Below, piece after piece: positions 7,792 to 33,300 of a DNA stretch of 64,000 bases. The stretch comes from Geothrix sp. SG200 (GTDB lineage Bacteria > Acidobacteriota > Holophagae > Holophagales > Holophagaceae): positions 248,001-312,000 of the forward strand of contig NZ_JAKZFR010000002.1 in NCBI RefSeq assembly GCF_022808935.1, written 5' to 3'. A model generated the notes under the pieces. That model saw only the letters and a list, made by a program, of their open reading frames with translations. It was not told the DNA's origin and made no database searches. The stretch's first letter is position 1. Every line of letters begins with the position of its first letter. A program made the translations under genes and the position numbers.

Positions 7792-8643
7792 TCAGCCGTT
7801 CAGCTCCCGGTGCCGCACCGTGAGGGCGGCCACATCGTTCCGGAGCCGGTGGGCGAGCAGTTCCACCAGGGCCACGGAGCGGTGCTGGCCGCCGGTGCAC
7901 CCGATGGCCAGGGTGTGGTAGGCGCGGCCCTCCTGCCGCACCAGGGGCAGGGACCAGCGCAGCCACGACTCGGCCCGCTCCAGGAACTCCCGGAAGTCCG
8001 GTGATTCCAGCAGGTATTCCTGCACGGCGGAATCGCACCCCGTAAGGGGCTTGAGGGCTTCGACATAGTAGGGGTTGGGCAGGAAGCGGGCGTCCAGCAC
8101 GACGTCCGCATCCGCCGGCACGCCCTTCTTGAACCCGAAGCTGAGGAGCCGGACCGCCGTGCCCCGGGTCGGCAGCTGGGGCACCAGGGTCGCGATGCGC
8201 TGGCGCAGGTCTGCCAGGCTCAGACCCGTGGTGTCGAGGATGGTGGTGGCCAGGGCGCGGATCGGGGCCAGCAGCTCCCGCTCCCGCTGGATGCCTTCGC
8301 CCGCGGAGCCCAGCAAGGCGAGGTGGTGGGGTCGCCGGGTTTCGGAGTACCGGCGCAGCAGTACGCTGTCGTCCGCCTCCACGAAGACCACCTGCACCGG
8401 AACCTGGCTGGCGGCCAGCCGCTCCAGCAGGGGACCGAACGCCTGCGCGAAGTCCGCCTGGCGGCTGTCCATCCCCACCACCAGCCGCTCCCGGCCGGGC
8501 CGGAGCTTCGACTCCAGCTCGATCAGGGGTTCCAGGAGCCGGGGCGGGACGTTGTCCAGGGCCGTGCAGCCGCTGTCCTCCAGCGCGCCCAGCACCGAGT
8601 GGCGGCCGGCGCCGGAGAGTCCCGTGACAACGATGAGTTCCAT
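7792..8643 (-). CDS. rapZ: RapZ/YvcJ-family RNase adapter or nucleotide-binding protein
   Basis: A 283-residue member of the RapZ (YvcJ) family. The N-terminal kinase-like half carries GLEDxGxxxxDN-type features (ALEDSGCTALDNVPPRLL) and the C-terminal half has the conserved NPYYVEALKPLTG and GCTGGQHRSV motifs that in E. coli RapZ form the RNA- and metabolite-binding domain. The P-loop is degenerate: residues 8-15 read GLSGAGRH, so the invariant lysine and following Ser/Thr are replaced by Arg and His. Nucleotide binding is therefore doubtful, while the C-terminal domain looks intact. It lies downstream of secA, separated by a repeat-armed terminator. Confidence 0.88.
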   Translation of the reverse strand: MELIVVTGLSGAGRHSVLGALEDSGCTALDNVPPRLLEPLIELESKLRPGRERLVVGMDSRQADFAQAFGPLLERLAASQVPVQVVFVEADDSVLLRRYSETRRPHHLALLGSAGEGIQRERELLAPIRALATTILDTTGLSLADLRQRIATLVPQLPTRGTAVRLLSFGFKKGVPADADVVLDARFLPNPYYVEALKPLTGCDSAVQEYLLESPDFREFLERAESWLRWSLPLVRQEGRAYHTLAIGCTGGQHRSVALVELLAHRLRNDVAALTVRHRELNG

Positions 8644-8652
8644 GGACTAGAA

Positions 8653-8752
8653 GCTATCAGCTGTCAGCTGTCAGCCATCAGTAAAAACAGCGGGCCCCAT
8701 CCGGGGCCCGCCACACTCCGTAACTGAGAGCTGTGAGCTGACGGCTGATAGC
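8653..8752. repeat. Heptad-armed hairpin element 1 (secA-rapZ)
   Basis: A 100-bp intergenic inverted repeat. The left arm (8653-8682) is built of 7-bp units, CAGCTGT twice, then CAGCCAT and CAG. The right arm (8722-8752) carries the complementary phase, CTG followed by AGAG, TGAG, ACGG and ATAG. The two arms pair imperfectly over about 30 bp. Between them lies a GC-rich intrinsic terminator (8683-8711). The right arm ends 6 bp from the secA stop codon. The same architecture recurs at 15008-15113. Confidence 0.85.
8683..8711 (-). terminator. secA intrinsic terminator (core of element 1)
   Basis: A 9-bp GC stem (8690-8698 with 8703-8711, loop ATCC) is followed on the minus strand by TG and five Ts. 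It is positioned to end secA transcription before the rapZ-like gene. Confidence 0.85.
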
Positions 8753-8758
8753 CGTAAA

Positions 8759-11377
<2,619 letters not shown>

Positions 11378-11423
11378 GGACCCGTCCAGTCGCGTAAACC
11401 ATTGATTGTAGCCTGACGGGTCC
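11378..11423 (-). promoter_or_regulatory. secA leader hairpin over the start site
   Basis: A perfect 9-bp inverted repeat (11378-11386 and 11415-11423) with a 28-nt loop lies in the secA 5' leader. In the minus-strand transcript its 3' arm (GACGGGTCC) immediately precedes the secA ATG and would occlude the ribosome-binding region. Translational control is an inference from position, as no leader peptide was identified. Confidence 0.45.
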
Positions 11424-11516
11424 CTGATTCCCAGCGGAGGTGCGGCATCCCAAGCCTCCTTGGTTGCCGAAGTTACCCTGTCCAGGCAAACTGATCGTTT
11501 GGAAAATGGAGAAACC

Positions 11517-11936
11517 ATGGCCCTCGAACGCACATTTGCCATCGTCAAGCCCGATGCCGTCAAGGACGGCCACATGGGTGAGATCCTCACCGCCATCGAG
11601 CAGAGCGGCCTGAAGATCGTGGGCCTGAAGCTCACCCGCCTCACCCCCGCCATCTGCCAGGGCTTCTACCACGAGCATGTGGGCAAGGGCTTCTACGCTG
11701 AGCTGGAGGCCTTCATGACCGAGGGCCCCGTGGCGATCATGGTGCTCGAAGGCGAGAACGCCATCCTCCGCTGGCGCGACCTCATGGGCGCCACCAACCC
11801 CGCCAACGCCGCCGAGGGCACCCTCCGCAAGCGCTTCGGCGCCAGCATCGGCCGCAACGCCACCCACGGCAGCGACAAGCCCGAGAGCGCCAAGTTCGAA
11901 GTGAGCTACTTCTTCAACGCCTTCGAGCAGTTCTGA
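11517..11936 (+). CDS. ndk: Nucleoside diphosphate kinase
   Basis: Transfers the gamma-phosphate between nucleoside tri- and diphosphates through a phospho-histidine. The 139-residue protein has the N-terminal [12 protein letters not shown] motif and the active-site segment NATHGSD with H117. The ATG at 11517 has GGAG about 6 nt upstream. It is divergent from secA across a 139-bp gap and ends at a bidirectional terminator. Confidence 0.98.
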
Positions 11937-12489: not shown

Positions 12490-14330
<1,841 letters not shown>

Positions 14331-14389: not shown

Positions 14390-14526
14390 GAACCACGAAA
14401 GGCCCTGCGGGCCTGCGCGAAAGCACCTGAGCGGAAAAGAACCAGGTCGCTTCCGGAGGTCAGAAGTGGGAGCCCGGGCCGAGAGTCCGGCCCCCTTTCG
14501 CGCCTTTTCGCGTGTTTCGCGGGTTC
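14390..14526. repeat. Intergenic inverted element 2 (yqeY-proS)
   Basis: Imperfect inverted arms made of short GCGAAA-type units (left 14390-14427, right 14489-14526) flank small inner hairpins. The right arm runs into the yqeY stop codon. The repeat unit differs from the CAG/CTG heptads of elements 1 and 3, but the layout (repetitive arms around inner stems, abutting a stop) is the same. Confidence 0.55.
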
Positions 14527-14974
14527 AACTCAAAAGGCTCTGCACCAGGGCGCTGGCTGCCTTGCCGTCGAAGGCGGCGCCGTGGGCGGCCTGGAGGGCC
14601 TTCATGACCTGGCCCATGTCCTTCTTCGTGCTGGCGCCGGTCTCGGCGATGGCAGCCTTCACCGCGGCCTCCAGGGCCGGGCCCTCCAGCATGGCGGGCA
14701 GGTAGGGCTTCAGCAGCTCGATCTCCGCCCGTTCCTGGGCCGCACGCTCGCTCTGCCCCACCTTCTCGAACTGGGCGATGCTGTCCTCCCGCGACTTCAC
14801 CAGGCGCTTGAGGACGGCCAGGGCGTCGGCCTCCACCAGGGTCCCCTGCGGGCCCAACCCCTTGGCCACCGCCTCGTTCTTGTAGGCAGCCAGCGCCATG
14901 CGGAGCACCTGGGTCCGGGCGGCATCCCTGGCCAGCATGGCGGTTTTCAGATCGGCCTGCAGACGGTTGAGCAT
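14525..14974 (-). CDS. yqeY: GatB/YqeY-domain protein
   Basis: A 149-residue helical protein of the YqeY family, related to the tRNA-binding C-terminal domain of GatB. Recognisable segments are LQADLKTAMLARDAARTQVLRM, the DSIAQFEKVGQ stretch, ELLKPYLPAML and the C-terminal KKDMGQVMKAL. The role of free-standing YqeY is not well established; tRNA-related function is presumed. It lies between the ferredoxin and proS, with a repeat element on each side. Confidence 0.88.
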   Translation of the reverse strand: MLNRLQADLKTAMLARDAARTQVLRMALAAYKNEAVAKGLGPQGTLVEADALAVLKRLVKSREDSIAQFEKVGQSERAAQERAEIELLKPYLPAMLEGPALEAAVKAAIAETGASTKKDMGQVMKALQAAHGAAFDGKAASALVQSLLS

Positions 14975-15007
14975 GGGACCCTCCGGGGACTTCCATGGTG
15001 ACGCAGT

Positions 15008-15113
15008 TGAGACAGTCCTCAGTCCTCAGTCTTCAGGAAAAACACCAAGCGGGCGCCCTTCGGCGCCCGCTTCGCTACTGAGGACTGAAGACTAGGGACT
15101 GACCCCTGTCTCA
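15008..15113. repeat. Heptad-armed hairpin element 3 (ferredoxin-yqeY)
   Basis: A 106-bp element of the same build as 8653-8752. Outer ends TGAGACAG (15008-15015) and CTGTCTCA (15106-15113) pair perfectly. The left arm continues as 7-bp units CAGTCCT, CAGTCCT, CAGTCTT, CAG, and the right arm (15078-15103) as CTG-phased AGGA, AAGA, GGGA units. The core is a GC-rich terminator. The right end includes the ferredoxin stop codon (15111-15113). Confidence 0.85.
15038..15072 (-). terminator. Ferredoxin intrinsic terminator (core of element 3)
   Basis: An 11-bp stem (15047-15057 with 15062-15072, loop CTTC) is followed on the minus strand by five Ts a few bases later. It sits just after the ferredoxin stop. 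The AAAAACA and GCGGGC parts match the core of element 1. Confidence 0.85.
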
Positions 15114-15365
15114 GGCTTTCTCGAACTTGATGACTTCCACAGGGCAGCCGGCCGCGGCGGCCTCGATGCTGGCCTCCAGGTCGGTGCCGAAGCTGCCGGA
15201 GAGGGGGCTCTGCTCATCCCGGTTCTCGGAATCGACGCCGTCCTCGCGCACGGAGCCGTTGATGTTGCAGCTGGTGTCGGTGACGTGGAACACGTCGGGG
15301 CACTCGGCCTCGCAGGCATTGCACACGATGCAGCCTTCGTCGATCCACACTTTGGTGATGGCCAT
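15111..15365 (-). CDS. 4Fe-4S ferredoxin
   Basis: An 84-residue electron carrier. Cysteines C12, C15 and C18 in CIVCNACEAECP plus C74 in GCPVEVIKFE fit the ligands of a single [4Fe-4S] cluster; C22 and C33 are extra. The central part (residues 40-62) is an acidic loop. The redox partner cannot be told from context. The ATG at 15365 has GAGGA upstream; the gene is divergent from thiL. Confidence 0.9.
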   Translation of the reverse strand: MAITKVWIDEGCIVCNACEAECPDVFHVTDTSCNINGSVREDGVDSENRDEQSPLSGSFGTDLEASIEAAAAGCPVEVIKFEKA

Positions 15366-15499
15366 GGTCGTCTCCTCGAGATTCAATGGGGGCCCTGGCA
15401 GGGGCGAACCCAATCAACCTAGCATCGCGCGGGCCTTGGACCAAGCATCGCCTGGCCTCCAGGGGCGTGGGAGACTGGAGTTGTGACGGAGGTCCGCCC

Positions 15500-17240: not shown

Positions 17241-17837
17241 GTGAAGCTGCCGCCGCCCCTCGAGGCCGTGGTGGAGAGCCTCCAGAAGCTGCCGGGCGTG
17301 GGGGCGAAGTCCGCCCAACGCATGGCCCTGCACCTGCTCAAGGAAGGACCCGAGGCCATGGCCCACCTGGCGCACCAGCTCCAGCAGGCCGCCGACAAGG
17401 TGGGCTTCTGCCAGGTCTGCGGCGCCTTCACGGACCAGCCCACCTGCCCCATCTGCCTGGACCCGCGGCGCGACTCCTCCAGCCTCGTCATCGTGGCCGA
17501 GGCCTCCAACGTGCTCAGCTTCGAGCGCAGCGGCCACTTCCGGGGCCGCTACCACGTGCTGGGCGGCCTCATCTCTCCCCTGCGCGGCGTGGGCCCCGAC
17601 CAGCTGCGCGTGCGGGAGCTGCTCAAGCGCCTGGAGGATGGGGCCATTCAGGAGATCATCCTGGCCACCAACCCCACGGTGGACGGCGAGGCCACCGCCA
17701 GCTGGCTGGCCCGCATCCTCGAGCCCATCGGCGTCCGCACCACCCGCATCGGGCTGGGCCTCCCCATCGGCAGCGACCTCGAATACGCCGACGAGCTCAC
17801 CCTGGACCGCGCCATGGAGGGGCGCCGGCCCCTCTGA
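17241..17837 (+). CDS. recR: Recombination protein RecR
   Basis: Part of the RecFOR pathway that loads RecA at gaps. The 198-residue protein has the helix-hairpin-helix (LPGVGAKSAQRMALHLL), a Cys4 zinc finger (CQVCGAF and CPIC), and a Toprim domain (LVIVAEASNVLSFERSG; later ATNPTVDGEATA). The start is GTG at 17241. The last 68 bp of coding sequence up to near the stop (17764-17831) are perfectly duplicated at 17935-18002. Confidence 0.97.
   Translation: MKLPPPLEAVVESLQKLPGVGAKSAQRMALHLLKEGPEAMAHLAHQLQQAADKVGFCQVCGAFTDQPTCPICLDPRRDSSSLVIVAEASNVLSFERSGHFRGRYHVLGGLISPLRGVGPDQLRVRELLKRLEDGAIQEIILATNPTVDGEATASWLARILEPIGVRTTRIGLGLPIGSDLEYADELTLDRAMEGRRPL
17764..17831 (+). repeat. recR 3'-end repeat, copy A (in gene)
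   Basis: A 68-bp segment in the last codons of recR that is repeated without mismatch 171 bp downstream. It encodes the conserved IGSDLEYADELTLDRAMEGR end of the protein. Confidence 0.95.
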
Positions 17838-17934: not shown

Positions 17935-18002
17935 CCATCGGCAGCGACCTCGAATACGCCGACGAGCTCACCCTGGACCGCGCCATGGAGGGGCGCCGGC
18001 CC
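17935..18002 (+). repeat. recR 3'-end repeat, copy B (non-coding)
   Basis: Exact copy of 17764-17831 in the same orientation. The 103-bp spacer between the copies (17832-17934) holds a perfect 9-bp hairpin (17872-17880 with 17884-17892). Beyond copy B the sequence differs from that after recR, so this is not a full tandem duplication. The copy could still encode a RecR-like tail ending two codons later, but it has no start or domain of its own. Confidence 0.95.
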
Positions 18003-18040
18003 ATCGGGTAGCCTTCCCTTCCTGACGGGCAGGAAGAACC

Positions 18041-18310
18041 TTCGAAGGAAGAACGCGAAGAGCGCCAAGTGGAGCTTCGCTCCTGGCAAAGGGCGCGAAG
18101 ATAGCCGACCGCCTCGGAGGAGGACACCCAGGCCTTCGGCCTCAGGTCGCGTGCAGCGCGACCTGCTTCGAGGGTGGCGGATCGAGGCGGCCCTCGAAGC
18201 CGCCCACATCCGCCACCCTCGAAGGGATGTCCGGGATGGGTCGAGGCCCCATTCGCGCTCTTCGCGCGCCCAGGGGGCGTCTTGGCGCGCTTCGCGTTCT
18301 GCTTTTCGAA
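18041..18310. repeat. Intergenic multi-hairpin element 4
   Basis: Outer imperfect inverted arms (18041-18069 and 18281-18310) made of GCGAAG-type units enclose several perfect stems: 13-nt 18130-18142, 7 bp 18144-18150/18158-18164, and a 17-bp stem 18166-18182/18208-18224 with a 25-nt loop that can itself pair. It fills most of the 484-bp gap between convergent recR and the 2Fe-2S ferredoxin, ending 11 bp from the latter's stop. No protein-coding potential is apparent in this gap. Confidence 0.75.
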
Positions 18311-30994: not shown

Positions 30995-31195
30995 ATGGCC
31001 GCCATCTCCTGCACCCACTGCGGCGCCGATCTGACCGCCCCCCAAAGCGTGCGCATCGCCGAATACCACTTCGGCCGCCTGGAGAAGGTCTCCGAGGATC
31101 CCGGGTTCAAGTACCACTTCGAGCAGGCGGACAACTTCACCATCCTCTGCAACAGCTGCAAGCGCCTCGTCCGCACCCTCCCCATCACGAAGTAG
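30995..31195 (+). CDS. Small zinc-ribbon protein (66 aa)
   Basis: Two CxxC knuckles, CTHC near residue 6 and CNSC near residue 52, suggest a single structural zinc; the region between is charged and aromatic (EYHFGRLEKV, KYHFEQADNF). There is no signal peptide. The ATG at 30995 has GAGGAG upstream. No family is recognised. It is the last gene of its operon and is followed by a long perfect terminator. Confidence 0.72.
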   Translation: MAAISCTHCGADLTAPQSVRIAEYHFGRLEKVSEDPGFKYHFEQADNFTILCNSCKRLVRTLPITK

Positions 31196-31202
31196 TCCCA
31201 TT

Positions 31203-31250
31203 CCACTCAAAAGGAAACGGCCCCGATCGGGGCCGTTTCCTTTTGGGTGG
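31203..31250. terminator. Bidirectional terminator between the zinc-ribbon gene and pilQ
   Basis: A 36-bp perfect palindrome (31209-31244) with A and T ends extends with one mismatch to 31203-31250. It separates two convergent genes, 8 bp from each stop. Confidence 0.92.
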
Positions 31251-31257
31251 CGCCGGG

Positions 31258-33300
31258 CTACTGGCGCAGCACCCGCGGCGTGATGAAGATCAGCAGCTCG
31301 CTGTTCGACTCGGCCTTGGTGTCCCGGCGGAAGAGGAAGCCCAGGAGGGGAATCTTCGACAGGAAGGGAACGCCCGTCCGACCGCTGCTGTGGTTGGTGA
31401 TGTAGACGCCACCCAGCACCGCAGTGCCGCCATCCCGCACGAGCATCTGGGTTTCCAGGGCCTTGCGGAGAATGGTGGGGGTGCCGTTCACGGTGCGGCT
31501 GAAATCGGCCTCGGCCTTCTCCAGCTTGATGTCCATGATGATGGTGCCCTCGTTGGTGATCTGGGGGGTGACATCAAGTTGAAGGTTAGCGTCGATGAAC
31601 GCCACGGTGATCGCGCCTCCCTGCGCCCCACCCTGCTGGGTGGGATAGGGGATCTTCTCGCCGCTGAGGATGGTGGCCTTCTTGTTGTTCTGAGTCACAA
31701 CCTTGGGTGACGACACGATCTTCAGGGTGCCTTCGGATTCCAGGGCCTGCAGGACGGCATTGATGCTCAGACGGTTGCTGAGGAAGGAGAGCCAGAGCTC
31801 GCCAGCGGGAGCGGCGATGGACGTAACGCCAGGCATTCCCGGGGACCAGGCCACGGAGGCGTGCTGGCCTGAAGCCGTGCGATTGTACCCCTGGATGCCG
31901 TTCCAGAAGGGGGCCTGGGAACCGACCCAGGGGGTGCCGCTGGTCCCAGTGCCACCCGTGATGGAAGCGGCGGCACTGTTGGCCTGGGGCCACTTCACGC
32001 CGAACTGGCGCTGCCAGTCCTTGTTGGCTTCCACCACGCGGGCCTCGATCTGCACCTGCTGGATTTGGACATCCAGGGTGTCCAGCAGTTCGGAGATGAC
32101 GGGAATGCGGGAAGGCAGGTCCGTGATGATGAGGGTATTCGTGCGGTCGTCCAGGATGGCCGAGCCACGCTTGGTCATCATCTCCTTGAGGATCTTCTGG
32201 ACATCGCTCACCTTCGCGTAGGAGAGGGGACGGGTGATGGTCTGGAGCTCCCCCGCCAGGGCTTTCGTCTCCTCCAGCCGCTTGCGTTCCTCTTCCTCCT
32301 TCTGGAGTTTCTCGATCTTGGCGACGCGCAGGACGCCGTTCTGGATTTCCTTGCCCAGGCTGGCGTTCTTGAGGACCACGTCGAGGACCTGGTCCCAGGG
32401 GGTCTCGTTGAACTTGAACCCGTAGTTGCCCTGCACGTCCGGGTCCATCACCAGGTTCAGCTTGCCGGTGTCCGCGAGGATGCGGAGGAAGTCCCGGATA
32501 TCCGTGTTCTGGAGGTCGATGGTGATCTTGGCGCCGGTGTACTTGGTGGTGGTCTCGCCGAGGGTGCGGCCAGCGTATCGGTTGTGAGCAGGGGGCTGGG
32601 CTTTCTCGGCTTCGGGCAGCTGCACGGCTTCAGGACTCGCCACCGGAAGGGCGGTGGAGGCGGCCAGCTGAGGCAGAAGCTGGAAGGAACTTCCCATCGC
32701 CGGGAGGCTGGCCAAGGCCTTGGGGGCGGCAGGAGATGTTCCAGGATTGAGCGAGGTCACCGGGGCGGAGGCAACGACTGTGGGAGCCGAAGCCTTGACG
32801 ACCGCCGGAAGCGGCAGAGCCTCAGGGCGGTAGATGCCCTCAAGATGAGCCTGGACGGGACCCGCGCCTGGATTCAGCATCAGCTGGACCCCTTCGGGAT
32901 TGCTGCCCACCACCACCTGGGTGCCCGGAGCCACCTCGAGCACCAGCCGGGTCACCGGCTTGGGTGCCATCGAGAACTGACCGAGGCGGGCCTTCTGGAC
33001 CAGCGGGTGGGTCAGCAGGGCCAAGTCCTTCTTGGTGACGGCGGTCCCCCGCTCGACACCCGGAAGATCCAGGACCACCCGGAGGGGGCTGGAGAGCACC
33101 TGGATGGCGGGCTGTCCCGCCATGCCAGGGATTCGGAGCAGGACCTTGGCCCCCGCGCCGGCGGGTTCCAGGGTTGCTCCGGCCAGCACAGCCTTCGCGG
33201 CAGCGGTTTCCACGGTCGGCGAGGCATGGAGGGACCCCGTGTGGATCCCCGCCAGGACCACGCCCCCTGCGACCAGCAAGGAACTCAGGCGAGCATTCAT
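31258..33300 (-). CDS. pilQ: Type IV pilus secretin PilQ
   Basis: Outer-membrane secretin through which the type IV pilus passes. The 680-residue protein has a signal peptide, an N-terminal AMIN domain (about residues 45-140, VLLRIPGM...VVLDLPGV), a low-complexity Ala/Pro linker, an STN/N0 domain (ITIDLQNTDIRDFLRILAD), an N1 domain, and the secretin barrel domain (QVQIEARVVEANKDWQRQFG to PFLSKIPLLGFLFRRD). Last gene of pilMNOPQ; its ATG overlaps the pilP stop by 4 nt. Confidence 0.95.
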   Translation of the reverse strand: MNARLSSLLVAGGVVLAGIHTGSLHASPTVETAAAKAVLAGATLEPAGAGAKVLLRIPGMAGQPAIQVLSSPLRVVLDLPGVERGTAVTKKDLALLTHPLVQKARLGQFSMAPKPVTRLVLEVAPGTQVVVGSNPEGVQLMLNPGAGPVQAHLEGIYRPEALPLPAVVKASAPTVVASAPVTSLNPGTSPAAPKALASLPAMGSSFQLLPQLAASTALPVASPEAVQLPEAEKAQPPAHNRYAGRTLGETTTKYTGAKITIDLQNTDIRDFLRILADTGKLNLVMDPDVQGNYGFKFNETPWDQVLDVVLKNASLGKEIQNGVLRVAKIEKLQKEEEERKRLEETKALAGELQTITRPLSYAKVSDVQKILKEMMTKRGSAILDDRTNTLIITDLPSRIPVISELLDTLDVQIQQVQIEARVVEANKDWQRQFGVKWPQANSAAASITGGTGTSGTPWVGSQAPFWNGIQGYNRTASGQHASVAWSPGMPGVTSIAAPAGELWLSFLSNRLSINAVLQALESEGTLKIVSSPKVVTQNNKKATILSGEKIPYPTQQGGAQGGAITVAFIDANLQLDVTPQITNEGTIIMDIKLEKAEADFSRTVNGTPTILRKALETQMLVRDGGTAVLGGVYITNHSSGRTGVPFLSKIPLLGFLFRRDTKAESNSELLIFITPRVLRQ

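Follow-up and report, generated by a model that had tools for sequence, protein, structure and literature searches.

The heptad-armed elements at 8653-8752 and 15008-15113 of the window (the whole 64,000-nucleotide stretch analysed) are, in our assessment and with moderate confidence, intergenic terminators whose flanks became inverted TCAG-N3 arrays by slippage, perhaps with hairpin-templated strand switching. This reading is supported by a terminator and U-tract that, in both elements, share the strand of the two flanking genes, by the intergenic location of nearly all arrays in the genome, by the sharing of a heptad class between paired arms and by arms that change class over a conserved core.

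The element at 15008-15113 consists of two inverted arms of CAG-N4 and CTG-N4 heptads around an intrinsic terminator, in the same layout as at 8653-8752. This architecture had been proposed in a first-pass annotation and was confirmed by the sequence, an inverted-repeat search and folding. The left arm (15008-15036) adjoins yqeY and forms the 3' arm of the minus-strand transcript; its heptads read CAGTCCT CAGTCCT CAGTCTT CAG on the plus strand (15013-15036). The right arm (15078-15113) adjoins the ferredoxin gene and forms the 5' arm of that transcript, with the plus-strand heptads CTGAGGA CTGAAGA CTAGGGA CTGA (15078-15102), of which one unit is broken (CTAG). This arm ends in the stop codon of the ferredoxin gene (15111-15113). 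Between the arms, the terminator scan and the fold place a minus-strand hairpin, AAGCGGGCGCC-GAAG-GGCGCCCGCTT (15047-15072, 11 pairs counted); in the scan its stem runs from 15072 to 15047 and is followed by GGTGTTTTT. The first-pass annotation had described a GCGGGC-type terminator preceded by AAAAACA: the terminator is present, but it lies on the minus strand, where AAAAACA (15038-15044) is the complement of its U-tract, TGTTTTT. In the first element, also read on the minus strand, the arm beside rapZ (8653-8682; TCAGCTG TCAGCTG TCAGCCA TCAG on the plus strand) and the arm beside the secA stop codon (8723-8752; CTGAGAG CTGTGAG CTGACGG CTGA on the plus strand) enclose a terminator hairpin of 12 pairs, nine of them G-C (8687-8714), with the U-tract TGTTTTT towards 8681; the scan gave the stem as 8714-8687, followed by TTTT. 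Both elements fall into one frame when written as TCAG-N3, to which the earlier CAG-N4 is equivalent.

The inverted-repeat search returned arms of 29 nt for the second element (15008-15036 and 15085-15113) and of 30 nt for the first (8653-8682 and 8723-8752), 83% complementary in each case. Compared with dinucleotide shuffles, folding was strong for 15000-15120 (z of -6.9 on the plus and -8.4 on the minus strand) and for 8645-8760 (-9.7 and -8.2, respectively). The pattern TCAGN3TCAGN3TCAG occurs exactly three times in the window (8657, 8664 and 15019), each time inside one of the two elements; with up to two mismatches it occurs 12 times against 5.8 expected, a count reached in 1 of 100 shuffles. 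Other repeats were also noticed in the window. A 71-nt direct repeat (17764-17834 and 17935-18005, 99% identical) is the end of a recR-like reading frame (17241-17837, named from its translation) duplicated 171 bases downstream. At 31191-31262, a 36-nt inverted repeat without spacer, 83% complementary and centred on AAAAGGAAACGGCCCCGA/TCGGGGCCGTTTCCTTTT, forms a strong terminator-like palindrome, and a 26-nt inverted repeat at 18166-18224 (88% complementary, 7-nt loop) is not heptad-like.

Both elements lie between tandem minus-strand genes. The second separates the ferredoxin gene (15111-15413; Fer4_15/Fer4_13) from the downstream yqeY (14525-14974), and the first separates secA (8759-11551, start end provisional) from the downstream rapZ (7792-8643). 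In the terminator scan, both carry, in the orientation of the upstream gene, a G+C-rich hairpin followed by a U-tract. The scan returned three sites in 6.6 kb, no more than in shuffles, so that a match alone is weak; comparable hairpins at these sites across the genus, together with their position, add to it. Judged from its sequence, the core is likely the working part of each element, as the predicted intrinsic terminator of the ferredoxin gene and, in the first copy, of secA.

The two elements belong to a larger set, which was assessed by sequence patterns and orthologous loci; the arms differ in unit number, so that a fixed-length model would mostly recover the TCAG spacing that the patterns already catch. 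The genome contains 65 overlapping exact matches to TCAGN3TCAGN3TCAG at about 39 places, against 26 for the reversed control pattern, which itself partly hits these very arrays. Among 40 arrays examined together with their surroundings, 38 lie between genes, two of them between divergent genes. A stop codon is the nearest gene boundary for 28 of the 38, typically at a distance of 20 nt or less, and TCAG reads away from the nearest boundary in 26; these contexts are approximate, since they come from home-made gene calling with a simple codon-position score. Two classes of heptads coexist in the genome, class T (TCAGTCC, TCAGTCT and TCAGGCC) and class C (TCAGCTG, TCAGCTA and TCAGCCG), and 16 of the 31 genus genomes had inverted paired arms ("genus" and "phylum" being the groupings used by the genome search itself). 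The suggestion of a family with diverging units was therefore borne out.

Orthologous loci were compared at three sites, two of which show that arms change singly and often without compensation, and that terminators survive without them. At the ferredoxin site, heptad arms occur in the present genome, G142 and G065, and in G195, G133, G194, G106 and G177 the site holds GCTGAAACGGC..GCCGTTTCAG followed by an GAACGGGCGCC terminator. In G202 the left arm is made of heptads; in its place the close sister G027 has the hairpin GGCTGAAACGGC..GCCGTTTCC, as does much of the genus at this site, and core and right arm are nearly unchanged between the two. Between secA and rapZ, the right arm (GTTTTTACTGA...CTGATAGC) is kept in the present genome, G195, G133, G106, G182 and G209 while the left arm varies. 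It is absent in G209, one unit shorter in G195 than in G133 (whose right arms differ by one base), and in G182 a run of CTATCGG units overran the left half of the terminator hairpin, with the right arm still in place. Other species have an unrelated terminator there. On the rapZ tree, the right arm must have been gained or lost about three times; the tree is too weakly resolved to order these events further than to require at least two to three changes. At the third site, the terminator AAAAGCAACGGCGCCCC...GGGGCGCCG, present as a single copy in 21 of 47 genomes, the core is kept while the arms are of class T in G000, G053, G184 and G198 and of class C in G065, G142, G106, G182 and G205. A further palindrome resembling GGGCGGCGCATGCGCCGCCC, preceded by GACCATAGACATC, was seen in or beside heptad arms of two genus members (right arms of L208 and L209), with a looser version at two loci of the present genome (L065 and L066); the latter genome contains no match to its exact core within three mismatches. 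Likewise, the palindrome TCGGGCGGCGCATGCGCCGCCCGA, beside heptads in G178, does not recur in the present genome within three mismatches.

The two arms of an element are matched at the level of class. Among paired elements at genus loci, both arms belonged to one class in 41 of 44, although both classes coexist in single genomes; an element of the present genome with mixed arms (L067, 3555-3660; TCAG-CTG units on the left, class T on the right) is an exception. At the AAAAGCAACGGCGCCCC terminator, triplet pairing was 0.542 against 0.359 for permuted partners, a value reached in 1 of 5000 permutations, and 61% of pairs formed in register (offset 0), compared with 18-19% at an offset of 1 or 2. 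Because the tests have some elements in common, and the elements are related by descent, such permutation counts are guides and not exact probabilities. Within classes, covariation above shuffled partners was sought in three ways and not found: own partners scored 15.2 against 15.3 for cross partners in one comparison and 16.0 against 16.9 in another, and triplet pairing at the orthologous terminator was 0.511 against 0.474 in class T and 0.633 against 0.661 in class C, in tests of limited power given how little the classes vary inside. Compensatory changes in the arm stems are seen at class level and not inside classes.

These data bear on the idea that the arms form a functional structured RNA, i.e. 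a long stem, such as an RNase III or mRNA-stability element, whose pairing selection maintains in the transcript as its sequence drifts. The strong folding of both elements, the class-level compensation at the orthologous terminator and the restriction of pairing to the correct register speak for such a stem. On the transcribed strand, however, G-U pairs were not preferred over A-C in 22 elements (29 versus 49), which argues against a selected RNA stem, for which the reverse is expected; with several orthologues among these elements, the small surplus of A-C (p 0.03) does not rest on independent observations. The missing covariation within classes, the gain and loss of single arms among relatives and the arm expansion in G182, which destroys the terminator stem, also speak against it, as does Rfam, which at gathering thresholds matched a tRNA only in the whole window and nothing at the two elements. 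We consider a structured RNA unlikely. The structural selection surmised in the first-pass annotation thus retains its basis in class matching and in the one orthologous terminator at which both arms switch class, and loses it for individual base pairs, as does the proposed functional RNA. The counter-case named there, two copies only and no compensatory changes, does not describe the elements either: copies are many, and compensation exists at class level only.

On the slippage reading, the hairpin and U-tract would, as far as the sequence tells, do the work, and the heptad arms would be repeat DNA that is made, homogenised and turned over by replication slippage. The hairpin probably enables strand switching by the polymerase, with one arm serving as template for the other, which would explain why the second arm is often in the class of the first; after copying, the arms would mutate and slip independently. 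The creation and repair of hairpin arms by template switching have been described (PMC8794818, PMC7202029). In most elements a direct copying event is not visible, since within a class own arms are no more complementary than mismatched arms, and no strand-switch footprint was identified in the elements compared. In a read-through transcript the arms would pair into a long stem enclosing the terminator, which may help to insulate the neighbouring genes; the present data show no fine-scale sign that this stem is selected as RNA.

Slippage alone does not account for a constant TCAG with a varying triplet, nor for the favouring of TCAG units. The TCAG/CTGA positions are better kept than the triplet (means of 0.89 and 0.69 in 11 elements, opposite arms not being required to hold TCAG). 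In 400 kb of genus DNA, chosen by synteny and not for heptads, no tetramer is more frequent at period 7 than TCAG/CTGA, which does not occur at periods 6, 8 and 9; it is not special in a further 333 kb drawn from heptad-bearing genomes elsewhere in the phylum. A tandem-repeat search of unselected stretches found TCAG in 8 of 20 period-7 arrays. TCAG is accordingly favoured among period-7 units without being exclusive.

The constancy of TCAG beyond what slippage explains keeps alive a reading in which a nucleic-acid-binding regulator binds to the arrays, as has been suggested for the TAACTGA repeats (S1, Csp or Csr proteins). It would also suit the orientation bias of TCAG away from gene boundaries and the placement of CTGA-strand repeats directly before start codons in Beggiatoaceae, cyanobacteria and Bacteroidetes (PMC4679880). 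It leaves unexplained, however, why both arms share a class, and the same neighbouring genes, secA and the ferredoxin gene, carry or lack arrays freely across species; we regard binding sites as quite improbable.

A family of small mobile elements of the REPIN or MITE kind, inserted whole at gene ends by a transposase, would be dispersed, intergenic, bounded by inverted repeats and patchy between species, as these elements are, and could account for the swap of the whole intergenic stretch at the ferredoxin site between the present genome and its close relatives G195 and G133. REP and REPIN sequences are likewise dispersed intergenic palindromes at gene ends (PMC3733652, PMC3116915), but they lack heptad periodicity. 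REPs end in a GTAG or CGTC tag, the GTAG kind going with RAYT transposases (PMC3733652), and neither tag was found at the arm ends of the two elements. A Y1/RAYT-type transposase (PF01797) was found neither in the present genome nor in any sampled genus member that bears heptads, whereas G087 has five PF01797 copies and no match to the four-unit heptad pattern; a link to this transposase was rejected for the genus. Moreover, the terminator cores are locus-specific and conserved while the arms change, and neither fixed ends nor a target duplication was seen. Mobility of this kind is very unlikely.

In the phylum sample, four-unit TCAG arrays occurred in 45 of 149 genomes, with the further triplets TTG, TAG, GGT, AAG and ATC. 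Exact-repeat counts in heptad-bearing genomes were higher at period 7 than at periods 5, 6 and 8-11, several of the regions having been picked for heptad hits. The paired-arm form also occurs with other units: L382 of G029 (13808-13930) has an inverted CAGATCG heptad pair without TCAG, and in other phylum genomes (L147, L148, L149 and L150) nested inverted arms with 7-nt units like TCCAANG or TTGGTNC lie inside or beside TCAG arms. A collection-wide scan for exact paired arms, in which TCAG alone was scanned, found at least 119 stretches, against about 0.02 matches expected in an equal amount of random sequence (our own estimate, equal base frequencies). Some 18 phylum names appear among the 80 matches listed, which include the isolates Nostoc punctiforme, Moorena bouillonii, Paradesulfitobacterium ferrireducens, Sulfidibacter corallicola and Kiritimatiellota B12222. 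Arms in the collection matches share triplets at 0.508 against 0.312 for shuffled partners. That TCAG-N3 inverted pairs are one very widespread bacterial element type, with a constant tetramer, a class-defining triplet rewritten in both arms at once and a putative dedicated factor that makes or reads them, seems highly doubtful.

With their tandem, intergenic units of period 7, the elements belong to a known kind of repeat, the intergenic heptanucleotide repeats (long simple sequence repeats and those of the TAACTGA kind), in a paired-arm terminator form that looks undescribed. A literature search, conducted mostly outside subscription journals, found no paper on heptad-armed terminators. The TAACTGA repeats (MacGregor 2015, PMC4679880) are likewise intergenic heptanucleotides that contain CTGA (TAACTGA being the reverse complement of TCAGTTA) and are patchy over unrelated phyla. 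They were, however, described as direct copies of a single invariant heptamer, with just one inverted case in the genome concerned, whereas the arms described here are inverted, flank a terminator and vary in triplet by class; TAACTGA is not the unit here (TCAGTCC/TCT and TCAGCTG/CTA), and the CTGA part alone is shared. The GGGAATC and GGGGA(C/T)T repeats of Xanthomonas and Nostoc (Rehm 2015, PMC4692102) are also intergenic and heptameric, vary between close species and, for GGGAATC in Xanthomonas, include some inverted pairs between convergent genes, but they are G-rich, quadruplex-forming and of another unit. Long simple sequence repeats of 7 bp are over-represented among the simple repeats of bacteria, with slippage as the proposed cause (Mrazek 2007, as cited in PMC4679880 and PMC4692102); as cited there they are near-perfect, in contrast to elements that keep TCAG, vary the triplet and have paired arms. 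Rho-independent terminators share the G+C-rich hairpin and U-tract of the core, but ordinary ones, including those of many orthologues here, have no heptad arms.

Heptanucleotides have been reported as the commonest long-unit simple repeats in many bacteria, with their cause unexplained. The genus offers orthologous sites at which arms appear, switch class and expand over short branches, so that slippage, strand switching and selection for pairing can be separated. The elements also carry a warning: strong folding of inverted repeats and a conservation of "form over sequence" are no proof of a functional RNA.
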